A DNA stretch of 64,000 nucleotides from contig JANWYV010000004.1 of assembly GCA_025055075.1 (NCBI GenBank), forward strand, positions 1 through 64,000. The letters are read 5' to 3'. The first letter of the stretch is position 1, and every line of letters starts with the position of its first letter. Positions 4,399 to 52,187 of this stretch are shown in pieces. The translations under genes were made by a program, and so were the position numbers. The notes below the pieces were generated by a model that saw only the letters and a program-made list of their open reading frames with translations, was not told the origin of the DNA and did not search any database. This DNA comes from Blastocatellia bacterium. GTDB lineage: Bacteria; Acidobacteriota; Blastocatellia; HR10.

Positions 4399-4422
4399 GG
4401 AGCGCGAGGCGATGACGCGACC

Positions 4423-13652: not shown

Positions 13653-14137
13653 CGTCGTCGTGTCGTCAACTCGAAAGATGGATAGGGCGCGCCCGCTCCC
13701 AGTGCTTTCAACTCCTCGCGCATCCACCGTCGCAAACAGGAGCGCACGCGCGCCCGAAAGTACGAGCCGCGCTCGCTCGCGTGATGGTCCACTAGCAGCA
13801 GCAATCGCTGCCACGATTGCTCCAAGCAATCGGCCACGCGCGAGATCCGCGTGATGTCGTAGGGAATGGCGATAGCCTCTGCACCGATGCGAGCGAAGAT
13901 CGCTAAGTAGCGGGCAATGGCCAAATCCGGAACCAACACGCGGCGTCCATCCAACTTCACTTCGATGCCGAGCAGCGTATGAATGATCTCCACGTGTCGC
14001 GCTCCGGCGGGACAATTCAAGGCATAACGACGCGTGCGATCCGCGAGGACCTGTTGATGATAGATCGTGGGGATCCAGGCTTCGCCAAGAGCTGCCTTCA
14101 CGCGCGCTGCGACGCTGTGAACTGTCTCTGTCGCCAT
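13649..14137 (-). CDS. Conserved-looking protein of unknown function, coupled to GT9
   Basis: A 162-aa soluble protein without a signal peptide, TM segment or recognised motif. The N-terminal half contains ALNCPAGARHVEIIHTLLG and a short beta-rich KLDGRRVLVPDLAIARYLAIF. The C-terminal half is helical, with SWQRLLLLVDHH and a basic RARVRSCLRRWMREEL. The start codon lies downstream of a promoter-like sequence, and its stop overlaps the GT9 start, so the two proteins are made together. The gene is divergent from hslV across 141 bp. No function is assigned. Confidence 0.7.
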   Translation of the reverse strand: MATETVHSVAARVKAALGEAWIPTIYHQQVLADRTRRYALNCPAGARHVEIIHTLLGIEVKLDGRRVLVPDLAIARYLAIFARIGAEAIAIPYDITRISRVADCLEQSWQRLLLLVDHHASERGSYFRARVRSCLRRWMREELKALGAGAPYPSFELTTRRR

Positions 14138-14154
14138 GACGAACGACCTTCGTA

Positions 14155-14184
14155 ATCGTAGGCCGCGCCGAGCGATGACGTCAA
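14155..14184 (-). promoter_or_regulatory. Predicted promoter for the unknown gene-GT9 pair
   Basis: Minus-strand TTGACG and TACGAT are separated by 18 bp, ending about 18 bases before the ATG at 14137. It lies back to back with the hslV promoter. Confidence 0.5.
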
Positions 14185-14240
14185 TCGAGGGCGATCGTTC
14201 CTCACGCGCCTTGCACTCCGGTTGCTCAGCCCGCACTTTC

Positions 14241-14269
14241 TTGACAATTCCAGACACGGCTCTTATAGT
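14241..14269 (+). promoter_or_regulatory. Strong sigma70-type promoter for hslVU
   Basis: Perfect TTGACA, a 17-bp spacer and TATAGT. The predicted start is near 14276, only about 3 bases before the first in-frame ATG of hslV, implying a leaderless or nearly leaderless message if that ATG is used. Confidence 0.75.
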
Positions 14270-14278
14270 GCTTATCGA

Positions 14279-14821
14279 ATGGCAAACGACGCGCGGATGA
14301 AAGGTACAACCGTCCTCTGCGTTCGCCGCCATGATCGCGTTGTCATGGCCTGCGATGGGCAGGTCACATTCCAGGACACGATCCTCAAGCATCACGCGCG
14401 CAAGGTCCGTCGGCTCTACAACGATCGTATCCTCGCGGGATTCGCGGGCTCGACGGGAGATGCTTTCGCGCTCTTCCAACGCTTCGAGAGCAAGCTCGAG
14501 GAATTTCGCGGGAACTTGGGTCGAGCGGCGGTGGAATTGGCGCGAGATTGGCGCACGGATCGATACCTCCGCCATCTGGAGGCATTGCTGATCGTCGCCG
14601 ATCGGGAACGCTCGCTCATCCTCTCCGGCAGCGGGGAGGTCATCGAGCCCGATGATGATGTGGCGGCGATCGGCTCGGGCGGACCGTACGCGCTGGCGGC
14701 GGCTCGCGCCCTGCTGCGGCATACGACGCTCTCGGCGCGGGAGATCGCCGAGGAAGCGTTGCGCATCGCGAGCCAAATCTGCATCTACACGAACGAGAAT
14801 TTCACCATCGAGGAGTTGTGA
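14279..14821 (+). CDS. hslV: ATP-dependent protease proteolytic subunit HslV (ClpQ)
   Basis: Threonine peptidase of the two-tiered HslUV complex. The 180-aa sequence contains the mature N-terminus [21 protein letters not shown], with the catalytic Thr exposed after removal of about 8-9 residues, and the [15 protein letters not shown] and [12 protein letters not shown] blocks. Two starts are possible, ATG at 14279 (MANDARM...) and 14297 (MKGTTV...). Neither has a clear ribosome-binding site, and the short propeptide of the first resembles the Bacillus ClpQ arrangement. hslU follows after 7 bp. Confidence 0.94.
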
Positions 14822-18232: not shown

Positions 18233-19159
18233 ATGAAACGACCGATCTCTGGGCTTCTGCCCCCAATCCCTACGCCGTTCGATGAAAGGGAGCAGGTCGC
18301 CTATGATCGTTTTCGCTCCAACATCGAGCGCTGGAACCGATGCGGCTACTCCGGATACGTCGTCATCGGTTCCAACGGCGAGTTCGTGCATCTCACCGAG
18401 AGCGAGCGATGGAAGGTGATCGAGACGGCGCGCGAGGCGATTCCCGGAGACATGCTCCTCATCGCCGGAGCGAGCTACAACGCCACGCGGGAGGCGGTGG
18501 AGTTCGCGCGGCGCGCAGCCAGCCTGCGCGCCGATGCGTTGTTGGTCGGGACCCCGCATTACTATCGCGACCAGATCACCTCGGTTGTCCTTTTGGATCA
18601 CTACCGAAGGATTGCTGACGCCTCGCCCATCCCGATCCTCCTCTACAACGTTCCACAGTTCACCGGCGTCGCCATCGCTCCGGAGATAGTGGCCCGCCTA
18701 GCCGAGCATCCGAACATCATCGGGATCAAAGACAGCGGAGGGAATCTGGCAGTCCTCGCGGAGATCTTGCGTTTGGTGCCCTCGGACTTCAACGTCCTCA
18801 CGGGATCGGCGGCGTTGCTGCATGCGGCGATGGCGCTCGGCGCAAAGGGTGGGATTCTGGCCGTCGGCTGCATCGCGGCGAAGATGTGCTTGGAGATCAT
18901 GCGCCTTGCGCGTGAGGGTGACGCCGCACGAGCGGCCGACTTACAACTTCGACTGCTGCCCGTTGCGCGCGCCGTCACCACGCAGTTCGGGATCAGCGGG
19001 TTGAAAGCGGCGCTGGATCTGCTCGGATTCTATGGCGGCCCGCCGCGTGCCCCACTTCCGGTACCGGATGAGAAAATGCGCGCCGAGATCCGCGCCATCC
19101 TGCGCGCCTCGGGGCTCTTCCCGGAGCTTGAAGACGCAGGCGCTCATGCCGTACCATAA
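18233..19159 (+). CDS. 4-hydroxy-2-oxoglutarate aldolase-like protein (DapA/HOGA1 family)
   Basis: A class I pyruvate-type aldolase of 308 aa. The Schiff-base Lys is in GIKDSGGN and the catalytic Tyr in LLYNVPQFTG. Several blocks match animal HOGA1 more closely than DapA: GYVVIGSNGEFVHLTESER replaces the DapA GTTGE motif, TPHYYRDQ follows, and FGISGLKAALDLLGFYGGPPRAPL lies at the C-terminus. HOGA1 cleaves 4-hydroxy-2-oxoglutarate to pyruvate and glyoxylate in hydroxyproline breakdown. A perfect AAGGAGGTGA precedes the ATG, implying high expression. Other 2-keto-acid aldol substrates remain possible. Confidence 0.85.
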   Translation: MKRPISGLLPPIPTPFDEREQVAYDRFRSNIERWNRCGYSGYVVIGSNGEFVHLTESERWKVIETAREAIPGDMLLIAGASYNATREAVEFARRAASLRADALLVGTPHYYRDQITSVVLLDHYRRIADASPIPILLYNVPQFTGVAIAPEIVARLAEHPNIIGIKDSGGNLAVLAEILRLVPSDFNVLTGSAALLHAAMALGAKGGILAVGCIAAKMCLEIMRLAREGDAARAADLQLRLLPVARAVTTQFGISGLKAALDLLGFYGGPPRAPLPVPDEKMRAEIRAILRASGLFPELEDAGAHAVP

Positions 19160-19214
19160 CCCCTTCGGCGCATCAGGCGAGGCGGACGCCGACTTGGCAT
19201 CGGAGGAGGTCAGC

Positions 19215-19616
19215 ATGAGTACGGTCCTCATCGAGAAGCGCGCCCCGATCTCTCACGGGCGAACCGATCTGCGCAAACGCAAGCCGAAACTCCTGGCTGT
19301 CATCAACGAGAATTGCACCGGATGCGCGGGCACGCCCGTGTGCGTCGAATATTGCCCGGTCGAGGCCTGTATGTTCTGGGTGCCCGATGAAGAACATCCG
19401 CCCTTCGGGCGCATCGAGGTGGATAAAACACTGTGCATCGGCTGCGCCAAATGCACGAGCAAAGGTCCCGATGGCACCTTCCTGGATGGTTGCCCCTGGG
19501 ACGCCATTGATATGGTCCCGACCGAAGAGTGGGAGCGTCGTCGCGGGGTGAAATTGCCGGACACTCCGGATCGTCCGCCGACGGAGTGGGGCGTCGTCCC
19601 GAGCGAATACGTCTAG
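19215..19616 (+). CDS. Dicluster ferredoxin with an insertion in the second cluster motif
   Basis: A 133-aa low-potential electron carrier. The first motif is C-x2-C-x5-C-x3-CP (CTGC...CVEYCP). The second reads CIGCAKC followed by 12 residues before CP, longer than the usual three, so the second cluster loop is enlarged. A charged N-terminal extension (RTDLRKRKPK) and a C-terminal tail of about 40 residues flank the core. GGAGGAGGT precedes the ATG at 19215. The uracil-DNA glycosylase gene begins 4 bp after its stop, and both products contain iron-sulfur clusters. Confidence 0.82.
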   Translation: MSTVLIEKRAPISHGRTDLRKRKPKLLAVINENCTGCAGTPVCVEYCPVEACMFWVPDEEHPPFGRIEVDKTLCIGCAKCTSKGPDGTFLDGCPWDAIDMVPTEEWERRRGVKLPDTPDRPPTEWGVVPSEYV

Positions 19617-19619
19617 GCG

Positions 19620-20381
19620 ATGACCGATCTCGCTCTCTCGGCGTCGAAACTGGCCGAGCTGCACGCGGAGATCATCGCGTGCCGGCGTTGTCCCCGCTTG
19701 GTGTGGTGGCGCGAAGAAGTCGCGCGCCGCAAACCCAAACGCTACCGGGAATGGGAGTATTGGGCCCGACCCGTACCCGGCTTCGGCGATCCCGCTGCTC
19801 GACTCCTCATCGTCGGACTCGCCCCGGCTGCTCATGGCGCGAACCGCACCGGGCGCATGTTCACGGGCGATCGGAGTGGAGATTGGCTCTACCGCGCTCT
19901 TCACCGCTTCGGCTTCGCCGATCGCCCGGAGTCCCGATGGCGGGATGATGGCCTCCAACTGCGCGACTGTTACATCACGGCCGCGCTCCGATGCGCCCCT
20001 CCACAGAATACACCCAGGCCGGAGGAATTGCAGAATTGCCGCCCCTTCCTCGAACGCGAATGGGTGCTGCTCAGAAACATACGCGTGATCATCGCCCTAG
20101 GACAGATCGCCTATGCGACCCTCCTCAAGGTCTTCCGCACCACCCATGCTCCGGAAGCGAAAGCGCCTCGCTCGTTCCCACGCTTTCGACACGGATTGGA
20201 GCTGGTCTTGACCCCAACGATGACGCTTTTGGCCTCATTTCACCCGAGCCAGCAAAATACCTTCACGGGGAAACTCACCGAGCCGATGTTCGAGGCGATC
20301 TTCCGTCGAGCCCGCGAGCTGGTGGAGGCGCGAGGAATCCACTTTCCTCCCGGCTGGCACGAAGAGGGGTACACGCCTTGA
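19620..20381 (+). CDS. udgB: Family 5 uracil-DNA glycosylase (UdgB)
   Basis: Removes uracil, and in this family also hypoxanthine and other damaged bases, from DNA. The 253-aa protein shows the family 5 motif GLAPAAHGANRTGRMFTGD (about residues 62-80), where motif A lacks the usual Asp/Asn general base, and motif HPSQQNTFTG (about 202-211). Cysteines at IIACRRC and later CAPPQN/NCRPF fit the family's [4Fe-4S] cluster. The enzyme is typical of thermophiles and Actinobacteria. Its stop codon overlaps the -35 box of the next promoter. Confidence 0.9.
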   Translation: MTDLALSASKLAELHAEIIACRRCPRLVWWREEVARRKPKRYREWEYWARPVPGFGDPAARLLIVGLAPAAHGANRTGRMFTGDRSGDWLYRALHRFGFADRPESRWRDDGLQLRDCYITAALRCAPPQNTPRPEELQNCRPFLEREWVLLRNIRVIIALGQIAYATLLKVFRTTHAPEAKAPRSFPRFRHGLELVLTPTMTLLASFHPSQQNTFTGKLTEPMFEAIFRRARELVEARGIHFPPGWHEEGYTP

Positions 20382-20406
20382 CCCATTCCCGCGCTCTCCT
20401 TAAAAT
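20378..20406 (+). promoter_or_regulatory. Predicted promoter of the GT4-GH130 locus
   Basis: TTGACC, a 17-bp spacer and TAAAAT. The -35 box incorporates the TGA stop of the uracil-DNA glycosylase gene. Transcription would begin near 20413, leaving a leader of about 56 bases before the ATG at 20469. Confidence 0.6.
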
Positions 20407-20468: not shown

Positions 20469-22790
20469 ATGCGCAGAAGGGGGCGGAGACGTCTGAAGAT
20501 TTGCTTCATCAGCACGTATCCGCCGCGTGAGTGCGGGATCGCGACGTTCACCTATGATCTCTGCCACGCGATCATCGAGAACCACGCGAACGTTCACGCA
20601 TCGGTCATCGCCATGACCGATACGCCGGAGGGTTACGATTATCCCCCTGAAGTGGTCTTCGAGATTCGGCACAATCGCCTGAGCGATTATCGGCTGGCCG
20701 CCGAATACACGAACCTCTCCGGCGCCGACGTCCTCTGCCTGCAACACGAATTCGGGATCTTCGGCGGACAACAGGGCCGATACATCCTCGACTTCCTGGA
20801 GTCGCTTCGAAAGCCGATCGTGACGACATTGCACACGATCCTTTTCAATCCTCCACCGGGATATCGAGAGGTTCTCACCGAGATCGCTTGCGCTTCGGAT
20901 CATCTCGTCGTGATGAACAGCAAAGCCATTCCTGTCCTTCGGGATGTTTACGGCGTCAGCGAGGAGAAAGTCAGCCTCATTCATCATGGCGTTCCGAACG
21001 TCCCCTTCGTGGATCCCAACTACTACAAGGATAAGTTCGGCGTCGAAGGGCGACTGGTCCTGCTCACCTTCGGCCTCTTGAACCGGAACAAGGGGATCGA
21101 GATGGTGTTGGAGGCCTTGCCGGAGGTCATCGCTCGACATCCCGAAGTCGTCTACATCGTACTTGGAGCTACGCATCCGGTCGTGAGGCGGAAAGAGGGC
21201 GAAGAGTATCGCCTCTGGCTCCAGCGACGCGTGCAACAGCTCGGGCTGGAGGAACACGTCCTCTTCTTCAATCGGTACGTGGAACTGAGCGAGCTCTGCG
21301 AGTTCATCGGGGCGTGCGACATCTACATCACGCCATACCAATCCAAAGAGCAGATCGTCAGCGGAACGCTCGCATATGCCGTCGGCATGGGGAAGGCCGT
21401 TATCTCGACACCGTACTACTATGCTGAGGAATTGCTCGCTGAGAATCGCGGGCGACTCGTGGAGTTCGGCGACGTCGCGGGTTTGCGCGAAGCCCTTCTG
21501 GAATTGATCGAGAACGAAGCCCTGCGGCACCAGATGCGCAAGCGCGCGTATGAGTTCGGCCGGCAGATGATCTGGTCCGAGGTCGGCGCTCAGTATCTGA
21601 CGCTCTTTGAGCGCATCTCCGCATATGCGCCATCCAAAGCCGTCACGCTCTCTTTGCATAAAGCCTTCAGCGCTGGTTACGAGCTGCCGGAGATCAAGCT
21701 CGATCACCTGATCCGTTTGACCGATGACACGGGACTGATCCAACACGCCACCTATGGCATTCCAGATCGGCGCTACGGGTATTCGACCGACGATGTCGGC
21801 CGCGCGTTAGTCGTGACGTTGCGGCACTATCATCAGTTCGGAGATGAGGCAGCGCTCTCTTTGGCTGTGCGTTACCTGAGCTTCCTTCACTACGCGCAAC
21901 TCCCGAACGGGCACTTTCACAACTTCATGGATTATTCGCGCCGTTTCAGCGATAACGTGGGAACGGAGGATACGCTCGGGCGCGCTCTTTGGGGGCTGGG
22001 CGTCGCTATCGCCTACAGCCCGAATGAAGGGATGCGTGCGCTGGCCCGCGAGATGTTCGAACGAGCCTTCCCACAGATCACCCTGAGGCATCCGCGGGCG
22101 ATTGCTTACACGATCTGCGGTCTCTATAACTTCCTCCGGCGCTATGACGGAGCGGCACAAGTGCGTCGCCGAGTAGCGGAACTGGCGACGCAACTTCTGG
22201 AGTTGTACGCCCAAAATCGGGCGGAGGACTGGCTGTGGTTCCACGAGGCGTTGACCTATGGGAACGCGAAGATCCCCCATGCCCTGCTTTTGGCCTATCG
22301 GGCGACGGGAGAAGAGGAGTTCAAGAAGGTCGGTCTCGAATCCCTTGATTTCCTGATCGCGCAAACCTATCGCAACGACTACTTCGACTTCATCGGAAAC
22401 CAGGGATGGTATCGGCGCGGCGGCGAACGGGCGATCTTCAGCCAACAGCCCATTGAGGCCGGATATACGGCCGAAGCCTGCCTGACGGCCTTTGAGCTCA
22501 CGCAAGAGCAGCGGTACCTACAATTGGCGCGGGCAGCGGCCGAATGGCTACTGGGGCGAAATCGGCTCGGGGCACGCCTCTATGACTTGAGCACGGGCGC
22601 CTGCGCCGATGGGTTGGAACCACAAGGTCCGAGTCTGAATCAGGGGGCGGAGTCGACGATCTGCTGCATGCTGGCCTTCTTGACCGTCGCGCAGCAAGAA
22701 GCCCAGCAGACCGAACGTCGGGGAACGCTCAGTAGAGCGCAGCTCTCGGCGGCCGTGAGCGCGGAGGAGCGAACACCAACCTTCGAGTGA
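20469..22790 (+). CDS. GT4 glycosyltransferase fused to an (alpha/alpha)6-barrel domain
   Basis: A 773-aa two-domain protein. Residues about 8-390 form a GT-B, GT4-type transferase (FISTYPPRECGIATF, LQHEFGIFGG, LTFGLLNRNKGIEM). Its donor loop reads EQIVSGTLAYAVGMGKAVIST in place of the usual E-x7-E loop, as in a mannosyltransferase-like subgroup. Residues about 410-740 are helical with repeating Trp/Tyr-rich hairpins (YGYSTDDVGRAL, WGLGVAIAYS, DWLWFHEALTYGNAKIPHAL, EAGYTAEACL), resembling six-hairpin epimerase or glycosidase barrels. It is probably cytoplasmic. It heads a same-strand cluster with two GH130 proteins and may couple synthesis of a mannoside with its remodelling; the product is unknown. 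Confidence 0.8.
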   Translation: MRRRGRRRLKICFISTYPPRECGIATFTYDLCHAIIENHANVHASVIAMTDTPEGYDYPPEVVFEIRHNRLSDYRLAAEYTNLSGADVLCLQHEFGIFGGQQGRYILDFLESLRKPIVTTLHTILFNPPPGYREVLTEIACASDHLVVMNSKAIPVLRDVYGVSEEKVSLIHHGVPNVPFVDPNYYKDKFGVEGRLVLLTFGLLNRNKGIEMVLEALPEVIARHPEVVYIVLGATHPVVRRKEGEEYRLWLQRRVQQLGLEEHVLFFNRYVELSELCEFIGACDIYITPYQSKEQIVSGTLAYAVGMGKAVISTPYYYAEELLAENRGRLVEFGDVAGLREALLELIENEALRHQMRKRAYEFGRQMIWSEVGAQYLTLFERISAYAPSKAVTLSLHKAFSAGYELPEIKLDHLIRLTDDTGLIQHATYGIPDRRYGYSTDDVGRALVVTLRHYHQFGDEAALSLAVRYLSFLHYAQLPNGHFHNFMDYSRRFSDNVGTEDTLGRALWGLGVAIAYSPNEGMRALAREMFERAFPQITLRHPRAIAYTICGLYNFLRRYDGAAQVRRRVAELATQLLELYAQNRAEDWLWFHEALTYGNAKIPHALLLAYRATGEEEFKKVGLESLDFLIAQTYRNDYFDFIGNQGWYRRGGERAIFSQQPIEAGYTAEACLTAFELTQEQRYLQLARAAAEWLLGRNRLGARLYDLSTGACADGLEPQGPSLNQGAESTICCMLAFLTVAQQEAQQTERRGTLSRAQLSAAVSAEERTPTFE

Positions 22791-22794
22791 AAGC

Positions 22795-23757
22795 ATGGAA
22801 TGGCGGGCCCCATCGTTGCTCTTTCGCCGGTATGAAGGGAACCCGATCCTCACCCCGGCGGATTGGCCCTATCCGGTCAATGCCGTCTTCAATCCGGGAG
22901 CCATCGAGCACGAAGGGGAGACGCTGCTGCTCGTGCGCGTTGAAGATCTCCGCGGCTTCTCCCACTTGACCCTTGCTCGAAGCCGAGATGGACGGACTAA
23001 CTGGCGGATTGAGCCCCGACCGACACTCGAACCCGATCCGCGCTACAAGGAGGAATGCTGGGGGATCGAGGACCCACGCATCATCTGGCTCGCCGATCAG
23101 GAACAATACGCCATCACCTACGTCTCGTTCTCGCGCGGCGGGCCGCTCATCTCTCTCGCGCTGACCCGGGACTTCCGCCAATTCGAGCGCATCGGGCCGC
23201 TCCTGCCGCCGGAGGACAAAGACGCTTCGCTCTTCCCCCGCCGAATTCGCGACCGATATGTCTTGTTGCACCGGCCGATCATTCGGGGAGAAGCGCACAT
23301 TTGGATCTCCACCTCACCTGATCTGCGCTATTGGGGCGAGCATCAAATCGTGATCCCTGCTCGCCCCGGATGGTGGGACTCGCACCGGGTAGGGCTTGGC
23401 CCTCCGCCGATCGAGACGTCGGAGGGCTGGCTCATCATTTACCACGGCGTGCGGGTGACAGCCTCCGGCAGCCTCTACCGTGTCGGTCTCGCGCTGCTGG
23501 ATCTGGACTATCCGTGGCGCCTCGTTCGTCGCACCGAGAATTGGGTCTTCGCGCCGCAAGAGAGCTACGAACGGCATGGCGACGTCCCGGGCGTCGTCTT
23601 TCCGACGGGAGCCATCGTCGAACGCGAGACAGGCCAATTGCGCCTTTACTACGGCGCAGCGGACACAACGGTGTGCCTGGCTTTGGCGCCCCTCGACGAA
23701 GTCCTGGACTACTTGAAGCGCTGCCCTGCAGAAGCTTCTTCGGAAGCTCCATGCTGA
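22795..23757 (+). CDS. GH130-family glycoside phosphorylase-like protein (first copy)
   Basis: A 320-aa five-bladed beta-propeller of family GH130, whose characterised members phosphorolyse beta-mannosides such as mannosyl-glucose or mannobiose to mannose-1-phosphate. Typical blocks are YEGNPILTPADWPYPVNAVFNPG, LLLVRVEDLRGFSHL, WGIEDPRI with the catalytic Asp, PPEDKDASLFP, GWLIIYHGVR and LRLYYGAADT. There is no signal peptide, so it acts inside the cell. It starts 4 bp after the GT4 fusion stop and has a paralogue immediately downstream. The exact substrate and whether it is a phosphorylase or a hydrolase are open. Confidence 0.88.
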   Translation: MEWRAPSLLFRRYEGNPILTPADWPYPVNAVFNPGAIEHEGETLLLVRVEDLRGFSHLTLARSRDGRTNWRIEPRPTLEPDPRYKEECWGIEDPRIIWLADQEQYAITYVSFSRGGPLISLALTRDFRQFERIGPLLPPEDKDASLFPRRIRDRYVLLHRPIIRGEAHIWISTSPDLRYWGEHQIVIPARPGWWDSHRVGLGPPPIETSEGWLIIYHGVRVTASGSLYRVGLALLDLDYPWRLVRRTENWVFAPQESYERHGDVPGVVFPTGAIVERETGQLRLYYGAADTTVCLALAPLDEVLDYLKRCPAEASSEAPC

Positions 23758-23889
23758 GGATGCTCTCTCTGAGTGACCATCGCGAACTCCTCCGACAGCA
23801 TCTAAATCGGTCGCGTAAGGAGCGATCACGCGATCGTTCGAGCTCACAGAGCGAGCGACCATTCAATCCACGTGCTGGAGGGATGGCGC

Positions 23890-24843
23890 ATGAAGAAGAA
23901 CAAGTTTCGAGAGCTCTTGCGACGCTACGAAGGCAATCCGATTCTGACGACGGCCGACTGGCCTTATCCGGCCAACAGTGTCTTCAACGCCGGAGCGACG
24001 CTTCTACCGAACGGCGAGACGCTCCTTTTGGTCCGCGTCGAAGATCGGCGGGGCATCTCGCACCTGACCGTTGCCCGCAGCCAAGACGGGATCACGAACT
24101 GGCAGATTGATCCGCAGCCCACGTTTCCCCCTGATCCGGAGCGATATCCCGAAGAGATATGGGGGATTGAGGATCCCCGCATCACTTGGATCGAGGAGTT
24201 GGAGCGGTACGCGATCACTTACACCGCCTTCTCGACGAGCGGACCGCTCGTCTCCCTGGCCTTGACGCGGGACTTCCGGGTCTTTGAGCGCCGAGGGGTG
24301 ATCATGCCTCCAGAAGACAAAGACGCTGCGCTCTTCCCCCGGCGGTTCCGCGGCCGATGGGCGCTCATCCATCGCCCCATCTCCACCTATCCGACCAGTC
24401 GGGCGAATATTTGGATTTCCTTCTCGCCGGACCTCAAGCATTGGGGGGACCACACGGTCTTGCTCGAAGCCCGACAAGGAGCCTGGTGGGATGCGAACAA
24501 GATCGGTCTCTCCCCTCCCCCGATCGAGACGCCCGAGGGCTGGCTCATCATTTATCACGGCGTGCGTATGACCCCGGCCGGATGTCTCTATCGGCTCGGC
24601 CTCGCCCTGCTCGACCTCGAGGATCCCCGCCGTGTCATCCGTCGGAGCGACGAATGGATCTTCGGTCCCGATGCCCCGTATGAGCGCGTGGGCGATGTGG
24701 CCGATGTCGTCTTCCCCTGCGGGGCGATCCTCGATCCCAAGACGGGGGAGTTACGCCTCTACTACGGTGCCGCGGACACCTCGATTGCCTTGGCTATTGG
24801 CCAGGTGCGAGAGATGCTCGCCTGGCTTCTCCGAGGAGGATGA
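23890..24843 (+). CDS. GH130-family glycoside phosphorylase-like protein (second copy)
   Basis: A 317-aa paralogue of the preceding protein, alignable along its whole length and keeping the same blocks (YEGNPILTTADWPYP, WGIEDPRITW with the catalytic Asp, PPEDKDAALFPRR, LRLYYGAADTS). Differences are clustered in a Tyr-Pro-Thr insertion after LIHRPIS and around ARQGAWWDANKIGLS, near where acceptor specificity should lie. A 132-bp gap separates the two copies. ATG 23890 is chosen because GGAGGG lies 8 bases upstream. Two copies imply two related mannosides or a hetero-oligomer; both are inference. Confidence 0.88.
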   Translation: MKKNKFRELLRRYEGNPILTTADWPYPANSVFNAGATLLPNGETLLLVRVEDRRGISHLTVARSQDGITNWQIDPQPTFPPDPERYPEEIWGIEDPRITWIEELERYAITYTAFSTSGPLVSLALTRDFRVFERRGVIMPPEDKDAALFPRRFRGRWALIHRPISTYPTSRANIWISFSPDLKHWGDHTVLLEARQGAWWDANKIGLSPPPIETPEGWLIIYHGVRMTPAGCLYRLGLALLDLEDPRRVIRRSDEWIFGPDAPYERVGDVADVVFPCGAILDPKTGELRLYYGAADTSIALAIGQVREMLAWLLRGG

Positions 24844-24845
24844 GG

Positions 24846-25877
24846 ATGCGTATCGCGATGTTGGCTCCAATCTCTTGGCGCGTTCCCCCGCGGCACTACG
24901 GCCCGTGGGAACGCGTCGTCTCGCTTCTGACCGAAGGTTTAGTCCAACGCGGCGTGGATGTCACGCTGTTTGCGACGGCTGATTCGATCACGCGAGCGCG
25001 CCTTGTGGCCGTCTGTCCCCGCCCCTATTCGGAGGATCCGACGCTCGATCCCAAGGTCTGGGAGTGCCTGCACATCTCGGCCGTCTTCGAGCGCGCCGAT
25101 GAATTCGATCTCATCCACAACCACTTCGATTTCCTCCCACTGACTTATAGCGGACTGGTGCGCACCCCTGTTCTGACGACGATCCACGGCTTCTCCTCCG
25201 AACGCATATTGCCCGTGTACGAGAAATACAACGGGCGCACATACTACGTGGCCATCAGCGAGGCGGACCGTCGTCCCCAACTCACCTATGTCGCGACGAT
25301 CCATCATGGCATCCCGCTTGAAGAGTTCACCCTGCGACGCGAGCCTGGCGAATATCTGCTCTTTTTTGGCCGCATCCATCATGAGAAAGGCACGGCCGAA
25401 GCCATCGAGGTCGCTCGACGAGTCGGCCTGCCGCTCATCATCGCCGGGATCATTCAAGATCACTCCTATTTCGAGCGCGCGGTCGCTCCTCACCTGAACG
25501 ATCGAATCCGCTATATTGGTTCGGTCGGACCCGACCGTCGAGATGAGGTTCTCGGTCGCGCGCTGGCCTTACTCCATCTCATCAACTTCGAGGAACCTTT
25601 CGGCCTGAGCATGATCGAAGCCATGGCCTGTGGGACACCGGTCATCGCTCGGGGACGCGGCGCCGTTCCGGAGATTGTCCGGCACGGCGAGACCGGGTTC
25701 ATCGTAGATACGCTCGAAGAGGCTATCGAAGCCGTTCGGCGCGCGCCCGAACTCAACCGCGAGCGCATTCGGCAGCACGTCGCCGAGCACTTCAGTCAGG
25801 ATCGCATGGTGGAGGAATACCTGCGCGTCTACGAAACGATCCTCGGGCAATCCGGTTCGCACGGAGCGAGGCGATGA
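24846..25877 (+). CDS. GT4 glycosyltransferase
   Basis: A 343-aa GT-B, group 1 transferase. The N-terminal MRIAMLAPISWRVPP and HYGPWERVVSLLTEGL, the central LLFFGRIHHEKGTAEAIEVAR and the donor loop EPFGLSMIEAMACGTPVIA are typical of retaining GT4 enzymes. An ATG at 24840 overlaps the previous stop, but the ATG at 24846 has GGAGG at proper spacing and gives the usual MRIA start. The following glycosidase begins inside its stop codon (ATGA). It is probably the second sugar-transfer step of this cluster; donor sugar unknown. Confidence 0.86.
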   Translation: MRIAMLAPISWRVPPRHYGPWERVVSLLTEGLVQRGVDVTLFATADSITRARLVAVCPRPYSEDPTLDPKVWECLHISAVFERADEFDLIHNHFDFLPLTYSGLVRTPVLTTIHGFSSERILPVYEKYNGRTYYVAISEADRRPQLTYVATIHHGIPLEEFTLRREPGEYLLFFGRIHHEKGTAEAIEVARRVGLPLIIAGIIQDHSYFERAVAPHLNDRIRYIGSVGPDRRDEVLGRALALLHLINFEEPFGLSMIEAMACGTPVIARGRGAVPEIVRHGETGFIVDTLEEAIEAVRRAPELNRERIRQHVAEHFSQDRMVEEYLRVYETILGQSGSHGARR

Positions 25878-27079
25878 ACGATGAGATCTTCCGACTCGGC
25901 ATCAACTATTGGCCCGCGCATCGGGCCATGTTCTGGTGGCGGGAGTTCGAGGTCGAAGAGGTCGAACGCGATTTCGAGCGCCTTCGAGAAGCGGGCTTCG
26001 ATCTGGTGCGCGTATTCCTGCTCTGGGAAGAGTTTCAGCCGGAACCGGATCGGATCGCCTCGGAAACGATCGAACGGTTGCGCGCGGTTGCGGATCTGGC
26101 CGCGCGCGCTCGACTACAACTGCTGCCCACGTTCTTCACCGGCCACATGAGTGGCGCCAATTGGCTGCCCGCGTGGGCATGCGAACCGAGCGAGGCACCG
26201 ACGCGCTTTCGCACCATCGTGAGCGGTCGCGTCCTCCACGCGCGCCCGAGGAATTGGTATGCGGATCCCGAGCTGATCGAGGCTCAAGCTCGTCTCGTCC
26301 GCGAAGTGGTGCGCGCGCTTGGCACGCATCCAGCCCTCTGGGGATGGGACTTGGGGAATGAGCCCTCCAATTGCGTGATCCCCCCTTCGCACGAACACGG
26401 GCTCGCTTGGCTCGAACGCATGGTCGCGGAAATTCGCGCCGCCGGTTCGATGCATCCGATTACTCTTGGCCTTCACATGGAGGATCTCGAAGAGGACCGA
26501 CGTCTGGGTCCCGCCGAAGTCGCGCGCGCTTGCGATTTGCTCGCGATGCATGGTTATCCGGTCTATGCCGAATGGGCGGAGGGGCCAACGGACGCTCAGC
26601 TTCTCCCCTTCCTCGGCTTGCTGACACGTTGGTTGGGCGGTGGCCGAGACCTCTTATTCGAGGAATTCGGCGCGCCCACGCGTCCCCTTCAGACGGAGAT
26701 TCCGTCGCGCATCCCTTTTCTCAGCGAGGATGACGCGGCCCGATTCACGCAAGAGGCTCTGGCTCTGCTGCATCATTTCGGATTCGCGGGCGCACTGCTG
26801 TGGTGTTACAGCGATTACGCGCCCGCGCTGTGGGACCATCCGCCGTTTGACGAGGCTCCTCATGAACGTTTCTTCGGCCTCTGGCGCGCCGATGGGACTC
26901 CGAAGCCCGTCGTTGACGTGGTCCGAACATGGAGCGGCCTCCCTCGCCATGCTCCTCATCGGGACTTCACATGGATAGATATCGCTCCAGAAGAATTTTT
27001 CAAGAGCCCTCGCCTCCACCTCCCTCGCCTGTACGACCGCTTTCGCCGGGAAGGTACGTCGGCTACTCTCCCAACATGA
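25874..27079 (+). CDS. GH5-like (beta/alpha)8-barrel glycoside hydrolase
   Basis: A 401-aa clan GH-A type enzyme. The predicted acid/base is the Glu of WDLGNEPSN (about residue 162) and the nucleophile the Glu of LLFEEFGAP (about 262), the 100-residue spacing expected for retaining GH-A barrels; LRAVADLAARARLQLLPTFFTGH is the third-strand region. No signal peptide, so it is intracellular or peripherally located. Neighbouring GH130 proteins make a beta-mannosidase or mannanase-type activity attractive, but glucosidase activity is equally compatible. Its start overlaps the preceding GT4 stop by 4 bp. Confidence 0.82.
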   Translation: MNDEIFRLGINYWPAHRAMFWWREFEVEEVERDFERLREAGFDLVRVFLLWEEFQPEPDRIASETIERLRAVADLAARARLQLLPTFFTGHMSGANWLPAWACEPSEAPTRFRTIVSGRVLHARPRNWYADPELIEAQARLVREVVRALGTHPALWGWDLGNEPSNCVIPPSHEHGLAWLERMVAEIRAAGSMHPITLGLHMEDLEEDRRLGPAEVARACDLLAMHGYPVYAEWAEGPTDAQLLPFLGLLTRWLGGGRDLLFEEFGAPTRPLQTEIPSRIPFLSEDDAARFTQEALALLHHFGFAGALLWCYSDYAPALWDHPPFDEAPHERFFGLWRADGTPKPVVDVVRTWSGLPRHAPHRDFTWIDIAPEEFFKSPRLHLPRLYDRFRREGTSATLPT

Positions 27080-27424: not shown

Positions 27425-28609
27425 TCAGAGAACCCGAGCGAGGACCTCCAAAAATCGCTCTCGAAATGCCGCGCGGCCGAACGTCCGCGCGCGTTCGGCT
27501 GCGCGAACGCTGATGCGAGCGGCGTCTGGATCAGCAATGACCATAGCCGTTCGTTCGACCAATTCCGAGAGCGTCTCCCAGAAGAACCCATTGCCCCCCG
27601 GCTCGATGATCTCCCGCGGTCCACCGCGTCCGACGGCGAAGGGAATGCAACCATATCCCATGGCTTCCACGAGCGCGATCCCGAAGTGCTCGACGCGCTC
27701 AGGCTCTCGATCTTCGTCCACGTCGAATCCCGTCGCGTGCCAGAAGACTTTGCTGAGGCGATAGAGTCGGCGCACCTCAGCGCGTTCGGCATTCACGTGA
27801 AAGACTACGGGCACGCCGCGAGCATGTTGCTCCAACTCGGTCACGACGGCTTCGCCCGAAGCATCAGCCCCTCCCACAAGATGCAACTCCCAACCCGGAT
27901 GGCGCGCGACGAACATTCGGAAAGCTTCGATCAAGGTTCGCTGATTTTTCTCATGCCCTCCCCGAAAGAAGCGAGCGACGCTCAGGATGATGTCCCTCTT
28001 CTCGTCCCACGAAACAGGCGTGGTCGGCAGCTCTACCGGAGGCGGCAGCACGAACATCGGGACCGCGGGGCGCCAATTCTCTTCGACGATGCGCGCCGTG
28101 AAGTGCGAGTTGCAGAGGATGAGGTCATATCGGCGGAGTGCGCGAGGGAAGTATAGCGCGCGAGCGATCTCCCGCCTGATGTCAGCGAGACGGCGCGCGC
28201 GAAGCGCGTGGAAGAGATCCCGAGCCGTCCACCGACGATGAGGCACCTGGATCTGTAGGATATTGCGCCGCGCTGCGAGTGGCGGTGGGAGATCGGATTC
28301 CAGGGCGATCGCCACATCATAAGTCCGCGTCACGCGCTCCAACGCGCGATATGTCCGAGCGAGCGCGCGCCGATTCCATAGCCATTCGCGCACCCCTCGG
28401 GGAGAGGACACGGCCTCGCTCGGCATTTCGATGAGGCCGATACCGTTCAGACACAACCCGAGTCGCTCCCGGAGCAATCGCAGATCGAAAGGACGTACGG
28501 CGATGAGATCTACGTGATGCTGCTCAGCGAGAATCTCAGCGATCACCCCAAGATAGACCTCACCTCCACCCATGACGTGCCAGCCGGGATTATAGAGCGC
28601 CACTCGCAT
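27425..28609 (-). CDS. GT4 glycosyltransferase
   Basis: A 394-aa GT-B enzyme. The N-terminus MRVALYNPGWHVMGGGEVYLG has the glycine-rich acceptor loop. ILSVARFFRGGHEKNQRTLIEAF starts the donor domain, and EHFGIALVEAMGYGCIPFAVG is the E-x7-E loop of retaining GT4 transferases. It sits 24 bp downstream of a radical SAM gene on the same strand, so it belongs to the leftward block with the GT-C protein and two radical SAM proteins. The likely target is a surface glycan; donor and acceptor are unknown. Confidence 0.86.
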   Translation of the reverse strand: MRVALYNPGWHVMGGGEVYLGVIAEILAEQHHVDLIAVRPFDLRLLRERLGLCLNGIGLIEMPSEAVSSPRGVREWLWNRRALARTYRALERVTRTYDVAIALESDLPPPLAARRNILQIQVPHRRWTARDLFHALRARRLADIRREIARALYFPRALRRYDLILCNSHFTARIVEENWRPAVPMFVLPPPVELPTTPVSWDEKRDIILSVARFFRGGHEKNQRTLIEAFRMFVARHPGWELHLVGGADASGEAVVTELEQHARGVPVVFHVNAERAEVRRLYRLSKVFWHATGFDVDEDREPERVEHFGIALVEAMGYGCIPFAVGRGGPREIIEPGGNGFFWETLSELVERTAMVIADPDAARISVRAAERARTFGRAAFRERFLEVLARVL

Positions 28610-28633
28610 CCGTATCGCTTCTGCGAAAGCTCT

Positions 28634-29770
28634 TCAGCCCGGAAGTCGTTTGCGACTCGCCCGGAACGCCATCAGGTTCTCCCATACGGGACGAAGGCTC
28701 CGTCCCAGACTCGGCATCGCCTCGCACGCCGTCCAACACGCGCACTCGCGCGCCGCGATCGAACGGCGCACTCGCTCGGCCTCCGGACTCAACCAGATCT
28801 CTTCGAAGCTCCGCTCCCGCACATTTCCGAGTCTCTTGTTCAAGACCACGCAGGGATACACGTCGCCGTACGGATTGAGGTAGAACGAGTGAGTCCCCGA
28901 ATAGCACGTGAAGAGGCGACGCGGACGCGCCTCGTACACCGTCATGCGTCGCAGATAATAGGCTTGCACATCGAGCGCGCGCCGAGGCCACGAGAGATGC
29001 GCGAGATGTTCCATTGCCACGCGCTCGAGGACGCGCGCGATCGCGCGCAGATCCTCCAGGGGCCATGTCGTCTCCACGTCTGTGCGCGCGTAGTAGGTCT
29101 CGCTATTTTGAGCGAATTGCGCGTTGAACCCGAGGCCGCGCGCGCGGGCCAGCTCGTACACCCGCTCCAGATCGCGCCAATTCTCGCGCGTGATCGTGAA
29201 GCTCACCCCCACGCGAATCCCTCCGAGCGCGAGCGCTTCTTCGATCACGCGCCACGCCTTTTCATAGACTCGAATTCCCCGCTGCCGATCGTGCGTCTCC
29301 CCAACCCCATCGAGTGAGACCGAGAGATAGAGCCGTCCGGGCTCGGGTCGGTATTCGGTCAGGATTCGACGCAACGCTCTGGCGTTCAGCTCGGGATTGA
29401 TCGCTCCCGTTGGAATCGTGATCGTCGCGCGCGGGAATTCGGTGAGGAAGAACCCACAGATCTCCACGAAATCGCGTCGCAGAAAGACCTCTCCCCCCGT
29501 CAGAGCGATCGCGCGCAAGCCGCGCAAAAGTGGAGATCGAAAGACACCGCGGATCTCCGCGAGCGTCAGCTCTCCGCGCGCTCGCATGGGATCCTGCCGA
29601 TAGAGCGTCCAAATGTCGCACATCTGACAACGCGAGTTGCAGAGGAACGTGACGGCGAAATTCGCGTATCGAATCTCGTCAACGCGCGGCGGCAGGATGC
29701 GCTCGCGCAATCGCGCGCTCACGCGCTCTAGTTTTGCCCTGAGCCCACGATCTTCCGCGCGCTCGTTCAT
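28634..29770 (-). CDS. Radical SAM protein with SPASM-type C-terminal cysteines
   Basis: A 378-aa protein. The SAM-cluster motif CNSRCQMC (about residues 43-50) is followed by ALTGGEVFLRRD and LYLSVSLDGVGETHD, the radical SAM barrel strands. The C-terminal FTCYSGTHSFYLNPYGDVYPC together with ECACWTAC matches a SPASM/Twitch auxiliary iron-sulfur region. Such proteins modify peptides or small substrates. No precursor peptide gene is visible nearby, and the context is glycosyltransferases. ATG 29770 is the first codon of the conserved region. Confidence 0.85.
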   Translation of the reverse strand: MNERAEDRGLRAKLERVSARLRERILPPRVDEIRYANFAVTFLCNSRCQMCDIWTLYRQDPMRARGELTLAEIRGVFRSPLLRGLRAIALTGGEVFLRRDFVEICGFFLTEFPRATITIPTGAINPELNARALRRILTEYRPEPGRLYLSVSLDGVGETHDRQRGIRVYEKAWRVIEEALALGGIRVGVSFTITRENWRDLERVYELARARGLGFNAQFAQNSETYYARTDVETTWPLEDLRAIARVLERVAMEHLAHLSWPRRALDVQAYYLRRMTVYEARPRRLFTCYSGTHSFYLNPYGDVYPCVVLNKRLGNVRERSFEEIWLSPEAERVRRSIAARECACWTACEAMPSLGRSLRPVWENLMAFRASRKRLPG

Positions 29771-29823
29771 CGCCGATCCTCGCTCCCCAACGCCCGCACG
29801 GGCATTGTACCACAGGTTCCCCT

Positions 29824-31701
29824 TTAACGATCTCGCACCCGCCACACGCGCACTCGTTCCCATCGCCATCGCAGGAAGTCCCAATAGGGGACTTCCAGGA
29901 CTACCTCGGCAGGTTCGTCGGGCGGCCACCCCCAATACCGAAACTCGCGACGCGCGGCGTACGCCCAATAACTCGGCTGCCCTGTTCGTTCGATCTCGCG
30001 CTTTCCCCGTTGATAGAGCGTCCAGGCGTTGAACGTGTAGTTCAAATTGATCTCCTCGATCGGGACTCCGCGCGCGAGCAATTCGTTCCCCGCTCTCCAT
30101 AACGCTCCATAGCCGGCGATCATCGTCTTCGCCGTCGCGATGGCCACCCCACCGAGTCCAATGAGGAGAAGAACGGCGAGAGATGGTCGAAGTCTCGGCG
30201 CTAACCTCCTCGCACCCAACAGGAGCCCGATGGGGAAGAAGACCAATAGATAGCGATCGAATCGGCACGAGATGGCCACGAACAACCCGAGAAAGAGCGC
30301 AGCGAGGAGCAGGAGGAATCGCGTCATCCACGCTTGCCAAGATCTCCCGCCCTCTCCGCGAACTCCAGCGAATCGCCATCTCTCCCCCGCGAACGTGGCG
30401 ATGAGCCCGAGGAGAGCGAGCCCGTAGACGATGTGTTCGAGTCCGACATAGAAGTCCTCCACGCGACCGCGCCAGTAATCGAGACCACGCTGCGAAGGCG
30501 TGGTTGCTGTGTACACCTGGTAATAGGCGACGAGCGCCCGATCGATCCCCTCGATGAAAAAGCTCCTTCCGAGATCCGTTGCGAACAAGAGGGCGAGGAG
30601 TCCGAGAACACCCGTCCCGAAGCGAAAGATGCGGGCATGCGCACGATAGAAAGCTCCCCACGAGGCCCGGCCCTCTTCCACAACGGCCGCGAGCACAAGC
30701 GCCCCGGCCCATGCCGAGATCGCCGTGAACACGACCCCTCCTCCCTTCCCGAATGCCGGCAGAATGGCCGAATCGGTGAGATAGGGCATGTGGCGACCGT
30801 CGGCCCACAATGAGTAGGCGGCATACCCACTGAGCAACAACAGAACCACCAGGACGAGCTTCCCCCTCTCGCCGAGGAGCGCACGCCAGCGGGCGGCCCC
30901 CACGAGGGGAAGAGCGAATGCTCCAAGATAGAACACCACGATGAACGGGAGATGCCGAAGGTCATGAGCGATCCGGTAGGTCTTCAACATCTCCAATTGC
31001 GCGAATCGGAATTGCGTCGGCATCCCATGGACAGCAGCGATCCAGATATAGAAGCCCAGGAGCACGGCCATCGGCATTCCGATTGCGACCCATCGCGGCC
31101 ACGAGCGCTCGTCTGCTCTTCGCTCTCCGAGCAACGAGAGGAAGAATCCGACGGGAAGGAGGATCGCATATTGCCGCACTAAGACGGCGAAACTGGAGAA
31201 GAGGGCACCCAGGATGAGCGCCCGCGTGCGCTCGCGTTCCTCAGACGCGACGCGGCTTTTCGCGAAGAAATAGAGCGCTAGAAGGAAGAGCCCCAGAAAG
31301 GGCACGTCGGTGAAGAACGTGAAGCTCAACGTGAAAACGATCGGATTGAACCAGAGCGCGAGCGCGGCCAAAAGTGGGAACCGAGCGCGTTCTGCGTTCA
31401 TGTCCTCGAGCCGGAGAACGCACAGCCGATAGAACGCCCAAAGGCCCGCGAGACTGAGCGCGAGCGTCGAGAGATGCAGGGCTGAGAAGGAGAAGCCGAA
31501 AGGCCAACAAAAGAGCGCGCCCCAAATCGTTTGAAAGACGAGGCTCGCGGCCGATTCATCCGGCAAGCGAAGGCGTCCCGTCTGCAGGAAATGCTGGACC
31601 GAGAGGGCATAGGTCCAATCATCCCCCACGGGGTATTCGTAGAGGGGATTCACGAGCACTATGGGAACGATGATCGCGAGAAGTCCCCAGGCGCTCTTCA
31701 A
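29824..31701 (-). CDS. Polytopic GT-C membrane glycosyltransferase (ArnT/PMT-like)
   Basis: A 625-aa integral membrane protein with about 11-13 hydrophobic segments. Its first periplasmic loop carries Asp-Asp in YPVGDDWTYALSVQHFLQTGRL, the metal-binding acidic pair of lipid-phosphate-sugar-dependent GT-C enzymes. A soluble region of about 90 residues rich in Trp and Arg ends the chain. The TTG start at 31701 overlaps the stop of the upstream radical SAM gene and follows GGAGGGGAG; no ATG gives a sensible N-terminus. It probably transfers a polyprenyl-phosphate-linked sugar to lipid, protein or polysaccharide outside the inner membrane. Confidence 0.82.
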   Translation of the reverse strand: MKSAWGLLAIIVPIVLVNPLYEYPVGDDWTYALSVQHFLQTGRLRLPDESAASLVFQTIWGALFCWPFGFSFSALHLSTLALSLAGLWAFYRLCVLRLEDMNAERARFPLLAALALWFNPIVFTLSFTFFTDVPFLGLFLLALYFFAKSRVASEERERTRALILGALFSSFAVLVRQYAILLPVGFFLSLLGERRADERSWPRWVAIGMPMAVLLGFYIWIAAVHGMPTQFRFAQLEMLKTYRIAHDLRHLPFIVVFYLGAFALPLVGAARWRALLGERGKLVLVVLLLLSGYAAYSLWADGRHMPYLTDSAILPAFGKGGGVVFTAISAWAGALVLAAVVEEGRASWGAFYRAHARIFRFGTGVLGLLALLFATDLGRSFFIEGIDRALVAYYQVYTATTPSQRGLDYWRGRVEDFYVGLEHIVYGLALLGLIATFAGERWRFAGVRGEGGRSWQAWMTRFLLLLAALFLGLFVAISCRFDRYLLVFFPIGLLLGARRLAPRLRPSLAVLLLIGLGGVAIATAKTMIAGYGALWRAGNELLARGVPIEEINLNYTFNAWTLYQRGKREIERTGQPSYWAYAARREFRYWGWPPDEPAEVVLEVPYWDFLRWRWERVRVWRVRDR

Positions 31702-32726
31702 AAGGCCGGTCTCCCCTCCTGAGCGGCAGCATCTGCGGGACGCCCCAAGCGAGCGCGAAGGAAGTTCCACACGCGCTCGCCATTCAATCGCGCGTGCGTG
31801 TGCTGACAAGCTGCGCAGAGCGGCACGCGCTGAAAATCGAGCCGACAATGGCGACGGCGCAATTCGGCGAGTGCGGGCCCCTGCCAGATCTGCGCCAATG
31901 TCTGTTCCCCGAAGCGCCCGATCACCAACTCGCCGTCCACGTCGAAGCAACAAGGCACGACGTCCCCATTCCATAGGATCGTGAGAGCGTCCCAGAGGAA
32001 CGCCGTGCACGGAACGCGAAAATCTATGCCGCGCTCGGGGAGTCCGCGATCCTCGGTCTTCCCCGCCCACGTGTTGAACGATTTCACATGGATGAAGTCT
32101 CCGGGCTGAAGGAACGGCTGCCAATACGCTCGAAAGGCTTCGATCTCGTGAGCGGTCTCCCGCATGGCGATGATCTGGAAGACAGCTCGCGGTCCCTTCC
32201 CTCCTCCCGCTTGACGGGCCTCGAGGAACCGACGCACGTTCTCGAGAACCGCGGAGAAACGAGCGCCGCGACGAATCGCCTCATACGTCTCGGCCGTCAC
32301 CCCGTCCAGACTGAAGACGACCGTGTCCAGCGCAGACTCAGCGAGCTGCCGCGCTCGCTCTCCCCGCAGGAGCGTGGCATTGGTGCTGATGACGACGTTT
32401 CGGATCGAGGGATATTGCTTGATGTACGCAATGCGCTCGAAGAGATGCGCGTCTACGAGCGGTTCGCCCCAAGCGTGCAGCCACACGATCTCCGCGCCAT
32501 ATTCGGCGATCTCATCGGCCGCGCGTCGAAACAGCTCCATCGGCATCGTGCCGTCGGCTCGCATCTTGGAGCGAGTCGGACACATCAGGCAATCGAGATT
32601 GCAAATGCTCGTCGTCTCGATGTTGATACGCCGTGGGAAGGGCGGCGGCTCGGCCAGCTCCCGCCGATGCCACCAGAGGAAGAAGCGGGAAGCGCCTCGG
32701 GAGATGATTCGCTCCAGCCGCGTCAC
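31698..32726 (-). CDS. Radical SAM/SPASM domain protein
   Basis: A 342-aa protein with the radical SAM motif CNLDCLMC (about residues 42-49), WLHAWGEPLVD in the second strand and VVFSLDGVTAETYEAIRRG. The C-terminal SPASM-like segment includes VPCCFDVDGELVIGRFGE and PLCAACQH. It is probably cytoplasmic with at least two [4Fe-4S] clusters. It is translationally coupled to the GT-C gene behind it, and thpR ends 2 bp upstream. Related proteins occur in carbohydrate and lipid-linked oligosaccharide clusters as well as peptide maturation systems, so the substrate stays open. Confidence 0.86.
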   Translation of the reverse strand: MTRLERIISRGASRFFLWWHRRELAEPPPFPRRINIETTSICNLDCLMCPTRSKMRADGTMPMELFRRAADEIAEYGAEIVWLHAWGEPLVDAHLFERIAYIKQYPSIRNVVISTNATLLRGERARQLAESALDTVVFSLDGVTAETYEAIRRGARFSAVLENVRRFLEARQAGGGKGPRAVFQIIAMRETAHEIEAFRAYWQPFLQPGDFIHVKSFNTWAGKTEDRGLPERGIDFRVPCTAFLWDALTILWNGDVVPCCFDVDGELVIGRFGEQTLAQIWQGPALAELRRRHCRLDFQRVPLCAACQHTHARLNGERVWNFLRARLGRPADAAAQEGRPAF

Positions 32727-49203: not shown

Positions 49204-49252
49204 GTCTCGGAGGAGCGCGGATGACGAGATCTCTTCGCGGAGGGGACAAGGC

Positions 49253-52182: not shown

Positions 52183-52187
52183 CCGTG

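Follow-up and report, generated by a model that had tools for sequence, protein, structure and literature searches.

Enzymes of glycoside hydrolase family GH130 are usually explained by diet or by the uptake of mannan, and a bacterial locus in which two of them stand among glycosyltransferases, with no sign of export, raises the question of which mannoside they would be acting upon. Such a locus is found in the first 64,000 bp of contig JANWYV010000004.1 (this whole stretch is called the window below) of the Blastocatellia bacterium assembly GCA_025055075.1, which totals 3.02 Mb and is 98.8% complete. It consists of five genes, designated A to E in Table 1: a GT4-like domain fused to an (alpha/alpha)6 barrel (A), two GH130 proteins (B and C), a canonical GT4 glycosyltransferase (D) and a GH5_18-like hydrolase (E). 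The gene set itself, its conservation in bacteria and archaea, its link to mannose, the catalytic residues that its proteins retain and the absence of export signals are directly established. As for its function, we tentatively favour a cytosolic beta-mannosyl-glycoside cycle centred on mannose-1-phosphate (Man-1-P), a reading that we regard as possible and somewhat short of probable. No published description of the fusion or of the cluster, including in Methanosarcina, was found in the open-access literature.

A preliminary description of this DNA, drawn from the sequence of the window, had listed five consecutive same-strand reading frames, and all are present. The spacing that it gave (gaps of 4, 132 and 2 bp and a 4-bp overlap) is reproduced when C and D begin at the ATG codons at 23890 and 24846, starts that are also used by most orthologues. 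A hydrophobic N-terminus is absent in all five proteins, which agrees with its statement that none has a signal peptide, and no transmembrane segment was found in A to E (maximum 19-residue Kyte-Doolittle mean 1.34).

Table 1. Features of the five-gene locus and of the block that follows it (window coordinates; residue numbers of the A barrel count from base 21627)
Feature	Position	Strand	Description
Gene A	20469..22790	+	GT4-like GT-B domain fused to (alpha/alpha)6-barrel domain
A, GT-B domain	about 20493-21626	+	GT4-like, from Pfam and predicted structure
A, barrel domain	21681..22709	+	(alpha/alpha)6; candidate catalytic acids D55/D56 (TDD) and E342 (NQGAES)
Gene B	22795..23757	+	GH130; E92-D93, K142, R160, R198, H217
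Gene C	23890..24843	+	GH130, widely conserved copy; alternative GTG start 23872
Gene D	24846..25877	+	Canonical GT4 glycosyltransferase; alternative start 24840
Gene E	25874..27079	+	GH5_18-like cytosolic hydrolase; E163 and E264 catalytic by alignment
Convergent block	27425-32726	-	GT4, two radical-SAM/SPASM proteins, PMT-like membrane protein

Conservation of the gene set

Gene A adjoins a GH130 gene in Acidobacteriota, Planctomycetota, Desulfobacterota, Fusobacteriota, alphaproteobacterial plasmids and Methanosarcinia. A query of named genomes with A returned 23 loci, from Acidobacteriota (including Pyrinomonas), Syntrophobacterales, Desulfobacteraceae, Verrucomicrobia, Planctomycetota, Hydrogenedentota and Latescibacterota among the bacteria and from Methanosarcinales and Methanolobus among the archaea; GH130 stands beside A in most loci that have enough downstream sequence, the exceptions being Latescibacterota and some Verrucomicrobia. 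Among 162 Blastocatellia genomes the A barrel was found in 19, the C-type GH130 in the same 19 and two more, D in 16, and E, with one fragment counted, in 15; the occurrence of A, C, D and E is nested, each within the previous set, with Fisher p values for co-occurrence of about 1e-19 to 1e-23 that are not corrected for phylogeny. Pairwise distances of A run parallel to those of C (r = 0.92, 19 loci and the window) and to those of D (r = 0.92, 13 loci and the window). In four genomes (G005, G008, G009 and G063) D and E are adjacent on a different contig from A.

In the archaeal class that contains the Methanolobus genome, A is carried by 37 of 238 genomes, one archaeal carrier being a complete chromosome of 5,751,492 bp. 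GH130 follows A directly in 25 of 30 archaeal loci, usually with D next; of the remaining five, four are either truncated by the end of the contig or carry an additional GT4 gene behind A, and the last (L089) has no GH130 within 1.5 kb downstream of A. Methanosarcina acetivorans was GH130-positive in a control search. Homologues of A with 35-46% identity also reside on plasmids of Sphingomonas, Sphingobium, Rhizobium, Devosia, Novosphingobium, Deinococcus and Ilyobacter. The Deinococcus order is A-D-C, with a C-type GH130 that is 61% identical, and that of Ilyobacter is D-GH130-GH130-A, with both GH130 proteins of other types. Some plasmid A-GH130 loci (L128, L133 and L132) adjoin chaperone or stress genes, namely those for DnaK/GrpE/J-domain proteins, GroES/GroEL and a cold-shock protein.

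The full five-gene order is a genus-level feature, the A-C-D-E set is a feature of the Blastocatellia and the A-C-D order recurs in archaea. Two units are conserved: A with GH130, and D with either E or a phosphomannose isomerase (PMI). The preliminary description had proposed a search for the gene order across phyla, and conservation of that kind holds for A-GH130 and A-C-D, in bacteria and archaea alike, and not for the five genes together; the opposite case that it had named, a gene order absent from any other genome, is not what the recurrence of the A-GH130 linkage over several phyla shows. A chance neighbourhood is ruled out by synteny and co-occurrence across phyla.

The link to mannose

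The D proteins of Pyrinomonas, and those intact ones of methanogens that were checked, end in a mannose-6-phosphate isomerase domain (PF01050, E 1e-31 to 1e-38), and fusions of D to this type II PMI cupin were found at L026, L027, L031, L117, L121 and L124. Four more Acidobacteriota genomes (L047, L048, L055 and L078) encode the same domain in a gene of its own that comes right after D, and in one of them (L048) the cluster continues with genes for a ManC-type guanylyltransferase and for a member of the phosphomannomutase/phosphoglucomutase (PMM/PGM) group. On plasmids, where guanylyltransferase is abbreviated GMP, the orders are GMP/PMI-A-GH130 in Sphingomonas, GMP/PMI-PMI-A-GH130-PMM in Sphingobium, PMI-A-GH130 in Sinorhizobium and Devosia, and A-GH130-AGE epimerase in Rhizobium. 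The genome of the window has Man-1-P guanylyltransferase-like genes on contigs C16 and C30 and a PMI cupin, all outside the locus. Independent D-PMI fusions and operons with PMI, PMM and guanylyltransferase genes strongly tie the gene set to mannose.

Mannosyl-glucosylglycerate, which the preliminary description had put forward as a candidate substrate, is alpha-linked, and the window genome has no match to the mannosyl-3-phosphoglycerate synthase family; this substrate is unlikely, and the synthesis of mannosylglycerate or mannosyl-glucosylglycerate was rejected on account of the missing synthase family.

The two GH130 proteins

Both B and C match the GH130 family of Pfam (PF04041) with scores of 199 and 191 bits against a cut-off of 26. 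They are about 64.5% identical to each other, and B, which is restricted to this genus and its sister genus, is a recent duplicate of the C type. The GH130 phosphorylases are marked by a catalytic Asp together with three basic residues that contact phosphate, the latter being absent in the GH130 hydrolases (PMC4599007). In the phosphate-site columns, which were assigned here by alignment from the residue roles given in that paper, B has R160, R198 and H217, C has Arg, Lys and His, and the A-linked C-type orthologues are basic; by these residues B and C keep the phosphorylase signature and stand apart from the hydrolases. Just before the catalytic Asp there is a Glu in both proteins, in place of the Tyr that is a beta-1,4 trait of GH130_1 and GH130_2.

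As to linkage, Lys199 of BT3780 is a marker of beta-1,2-mannoside specificity (PMC4599007). B has K142 and C has K144 in a column close to the active site that is also Lys in the A-linked C-type orthologues, in 4/4 beta-1,2 references and not in the beta-1,4 references, which have Arg in 3/3; these references are sequences from PDB alignments, several of them partial, and BT3780 is not among them. The beta-1,2-mannoside enzymes Teth514_1788/1789, Lin0857 and Uhgb_MS share with B and C the Glu-Asp pair, the phosphate-site Arg, Arg/Lys and His, and the lysine of the NKD/DKD motif, whereas the best-scoring full-length PDB sequence is a beta-1,4 enzyme, TM1225 (226 bits). A longer GH130 type of about 430-550 residues partners A in Verrucomicrobia and on alphaproteobacterial plasmids (L042, L043, L032 at 13261-14754, L127-L129 and L131-L135); Gln takes the place of the phosphate-site Arg/Lys in the three that were aligned (L032, L042 and L043), and this type may for that reason not be a simple phosphorylase.

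Proteins D and E

Pfam assigns GT4 domains to both D and A. The closest solved relative of D is the Thermosynechococcus glucosylsucrose synthase TeGSS (PDB 7fg9; about 41% identity, 298 bits), for which the residues that contact phosphate and the Trp10 that stacks on sucrose have been described (PMC9909042). Tyr18, Arg179, Lys184 and both Glu residues of the E-x7-E motif (among them the equivalent of TeGSS Glu256) are kept in 30/30 D proteins, in all of which Trp10 is replaced by Ser or Ala; unlike TeGSS, D is elsewhere fused to, or trailed by, a mannose-6-phosphate isomerase domain. By these residues D is a canonical retaining, alpha-forming transferase with an acceptor that is probably not sucrose, and a glucosylsucrose synthase proper was rejected since the acceptor Trp is missing.

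This bears on the proposal that the locus makes a compatible-solute glycoside, an osmo- or thermoprotectant related to glucosylsucrose, in which D would extend an alpha-1,2 oligosaccharide and GH130 would cap it with beta-mannose. The resemblance to TeGSS with its phosphate-contacting residues (PMC9909042) speaks for such a product, as do the genes for universal stress protein, DnaK/GrpE, GroES/GroEL and cold-shock proteins near the loci of some relatives; with the loss of Trp10 throughout the D proteins, and with a sole match to the sucrose-phosphatase family in the window genome that is partial and weak (43 bits), we regard it as very improbable.

Neither Pfam nor NCBIfam puts E firmly in a family, its Pfam match being marginal (PF02449, 22.1 against a cut-off of 21), and its relatives in the PDB by phmmer are mainly GH5_18 enzymes and mannosidases, among them an exo-beta-1,4-mannosidase, all at 69 bits or less (ScGH5_18, E 4e-17), which bears out its earlier designation as GH5-like. 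The match to ScGH5_18 and BlGH5_18 extends over the full length and includes both catalytic Glu residues, though overall similarity is low (65 bits); E163 and E264, the acid/base and nucleophile positions, are invariant in 15 aligned sequences including ScGH5_18. E is a probable beta-mannosidase.

The fusion protein A

The N-terminal half of A is predicted to have a GT-B fold (AlphaFold pLDDT 91.2), with MshA, PimA and BshA as its top structure matches, and its mean column identity over bacteria and archaea is 68%. In 31 orthologues the PimA-type Arg is replaced by Leu, the first Glu of the E-x7-E pair is variable and the second is not Glu; with these usual GT4 residues lost, transferase activity of A is not assured, and this half may be a mechanistically divergent or non-catalytic relative of GT4. 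The preliminary description had counted two sugar transferases in the locus, which remains apt for D and is doubtful for A.

The C-terminal half is predicted as an (alpha/alpha)6 barrel (pLDDT 90.8). The closest solved structure in a fold search is YPO2471 (PDB 7tem, TM 0.75), followed by the AGE/cellobiose-2-epimerase superfamily (TM 0.65-0.68) and then by GH9-type and GH76 enzymes, and homology to YPO2471 is also seen by profile (E 1.5e-20). The two belong to one (alpha/alpha)6 family with DDxAR and NxGAES motifs in common; YPO2471 differs in being exported and in lacking a GT4 domain, and its entry title names no function. Within the A barrel, D56 and E342 are invariant and D55 is nearly so, and the acidic residues are common to YPO2471 and to a secreted stand-alone relative in the Blastocatellia genome G086. 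Around this relative (L080, G086:C85:27001-39962, at 3982-5895) lie genes for a C-type GH130, for an MGH1-like hydrolase and for the solute-binding protein and permeases of an ABC system. Of the histidines H40 alone is invariant and H27 nearly so, the conserved polar residues being mostly acidic, and our best guess from these residues is an active site of glycosidase type. AGE and cellobiose 2-epimerases need a set of several catalytic histidines, and a cellobiose-2-epimerase that would feed a mannosyl-glucose phosphorylase was rejected, as the fold fits and these histidines are not conserved. A separate AGE epimerase gene lies downstream of A-GH130 on two rhizobial plasmids. In the A orthologues found, the GT4-barrel fusion is kept as a single protein, and A may now be named as a conserved, uncharacterised partner of GH130.

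A possible mannoside cycle and its alternatives

Transferases of the GT4 family retain the configuration of the donor, and GDP-mannose, being an alpha donor, gives alpha-mannosides. GH130 enzymes act on beta-mannosides, by inversion (PMC4264767). The preliminary description had seen an intracellular glycoside that is both built and recovered, and the cytosolic, mannose-linked and conserved character of the locus agrees with this; the part that does not stand is the supply of substrate, since the GT4 pair cannot make beta-mannosides for GH130. The beta bond needs GH130 working in reverse or another enzyme, and the simplest beta-forming step would be reverse phosphorolysis by GH130, a reaction that both Thermoanaerobacter GH130 enzymes run in vitro (PMC4264767).

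In the cycle that we tentatively favour, PMI and PMM, encoded outside the locus here and fused to D or beside A or D in relatives, would make Man-1-P from fructose-6-phosphate; D, and possibly also A, would form an alpha-linked acceptor glycoside; C and B would reversibly add or remove beta-1,2-linked mannose on this acceptor by way of Man-1-P and phosphate; and the A barrel and E would trim or reset the glycoside. Reclaimed Man-1-P could then pass to GDP-mannose or to glycolysis with no ATP spent, and the product might serve as a reserve or stress-protecting oligosaccharide. We infer the beta-1,2 linkage, the direction of GH130 in vivo, the roles of A and E and the product from the gene set. 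The logic would be like that of the Leishmania mannogen cycle, which has an intracellular beta-1,2-mannan reserve, turnover via Man-1-P and GH130-fold enzymes (PMC8950772); the likeness is one of logic only, as that system is eukaryotic and its transferase/phosphorylases are of family GT108 and not GH130. A cytosolic beta-mannoside phosphorylase together with transferases and PMI, in organisms with no mannan diet that include methanogens, points to an endogenous beta-mannoside. To our knowledge the Leishmania cycle has no GT4-barrel partner.

Several points weigh against this cycle. A lacks the canonical GT4 residues, and D, given its resemblance to a UDP-glucose enzyme, may use glucose and not mannose as donor. 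K142 and K144 are read as the equivalent of BT3780 Lys199 through an alignment that lacks BT3780, and the matches of the GH130 proteins to the NCBIfam beta-1,2-mannobiose phosphorylase equivalogs fall below cut-off (237-240/550 and 196-200/450 bits). PMI and PMM would equally serve the breakdown of Man-1-P, the C-type GH130 of G086, which has no A, lies beside an ABC sugar importer, and a Wzx-like flippase near some archaeal loci could mean a surface glycan.

The closest known system is the Teth514_1785-1796 cluster of Thermoanaerobacter sp. X-514, from which two beta-1,2-mannoside phosphorylases that lack signal peptides have been characterised, in a genus where no potential source of 1,2-β-oligomannan was identified (PMC4264767). 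Likened by enzyme class, the two clusters share two GH130 proteins, one GH5 glycosidase and one GT4; the Thermoanaerobacter cluster differs in including an ABC importer and a guanylyltransferase, both absent from the window cluster, in having no described GT4-(alpha/alpha)6 fusion, and in its proposed role, which is salvage and not synthesis. The traits that distinguish the present gene set from it are the GT4-(alpha/alpha)6 fusion, the D-PMI fusion and the spread over two domains of life.

Salvage alone could also account for the locus: imported or self-derived beta-mannosides would be phosphorolysed by B and C and hydrolysed by E, the Man-1-P would become GDP-mannose, and D, perhaps with A, would spend this on unrelated envelope glycans, as proposed for Thermoanaerobacter. 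That cluster, with the same enzyme classes next to its importer and guanylyltransferase (PMC4264767), is the chief argument for it, along with the grouping in G086 of the C-type GH130 with ABC importer genes, the secreted barrel protein and the MGH1-like hydrolase, seemingly the same enzyme pair in a catabolic role. We consider salvage alone somewhat unlikely, in that neither the five-gene cluster nor any A-containing locus inspected for its neighbours includes an importer, A almost always adjoins GH130, and the D-PMI fusion ties mannose supply to the transferase. A dedicated transporter in the operon, which the preliminary description had named as the contrary case, is found neither in this locus nor in most relatives. 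Its view that the enzymes are not uptake-linked fits the A-containing loci and is too broad for the family, since two genomes without A have hydrolytic neighbours beside the same GH130 type; uptake-linked use also occurs, to judge from these neighbours and from the ABC sugar importer in one of the two.

At Methanolobus-type loci L117, L118 and L123 the divergent genes on the upstream side of A encode a Wzx-like flippase and a further GH130 of the C type; at L031 the flippase stands there alone. A lipid-linked or surface oligosaccharide would be built by A and D in the cytosol and exported by such a flippase, with GH130 and E editing or recycling faulty intermediates. The PF01943 flippase divergent from A in the Methanolobus-type loci, with the extra GH130 in three of them, and the radical-SAM/GT4/PMT block downstream of the locus in this genus are consistent with that proposal, which we judge improbable: no flippase stands beside the Methanosarcina-type, Acidobacteriota or plasmid loci examined, and a phosphorylase pair with a beta-mannosidase would be an odd choice for editing.

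Returning to the cytosolic cycle, a broader version of it, in which bacteria and archaea share a horizontally spread beta-1,2-mannosyl carbon store or buffer that runs via Man-1-P, with GH130 as its in vivo synthase and the A fusion as a priming or resetting partner, would be a prokaryotic counterpart of mannogen, and we think it unlikely. If it were true, a carbon-storing module would span the divide between bacteria and archaea and would include genetically tractable methanogens, among which Methanosarcina, with A, C and D together, offers a direct genetic test of the module.

Surroundings of the locus

The convergent block with transferase and radical-SAM genes that the preliminary description placed downstream is present (Table 1). 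Its GT4 and radical-SAM genes likewise follow the locus in the same-genus genome L023, and its GT4 does so in L030; outside the genus the block was not seen among the relatives compared. A search of the window for structured RNAs and tRNAs found none, and the one promoter-like site given by a promoter and terminator scan (20378-20406, upstream of A) is within what chance would yield. The genes that immediately precede A, on its strand, encode a ferredoxin-like protein and a uracil-DNA glycosylase of the family-4 type (19032-20381). Farther along, the window encodes a CstA-like carbon starvation transporter (49142-51031) and a TonB-dependent-receptor-like protein with a carboxypeptidase regulatory domain (52098-54722).

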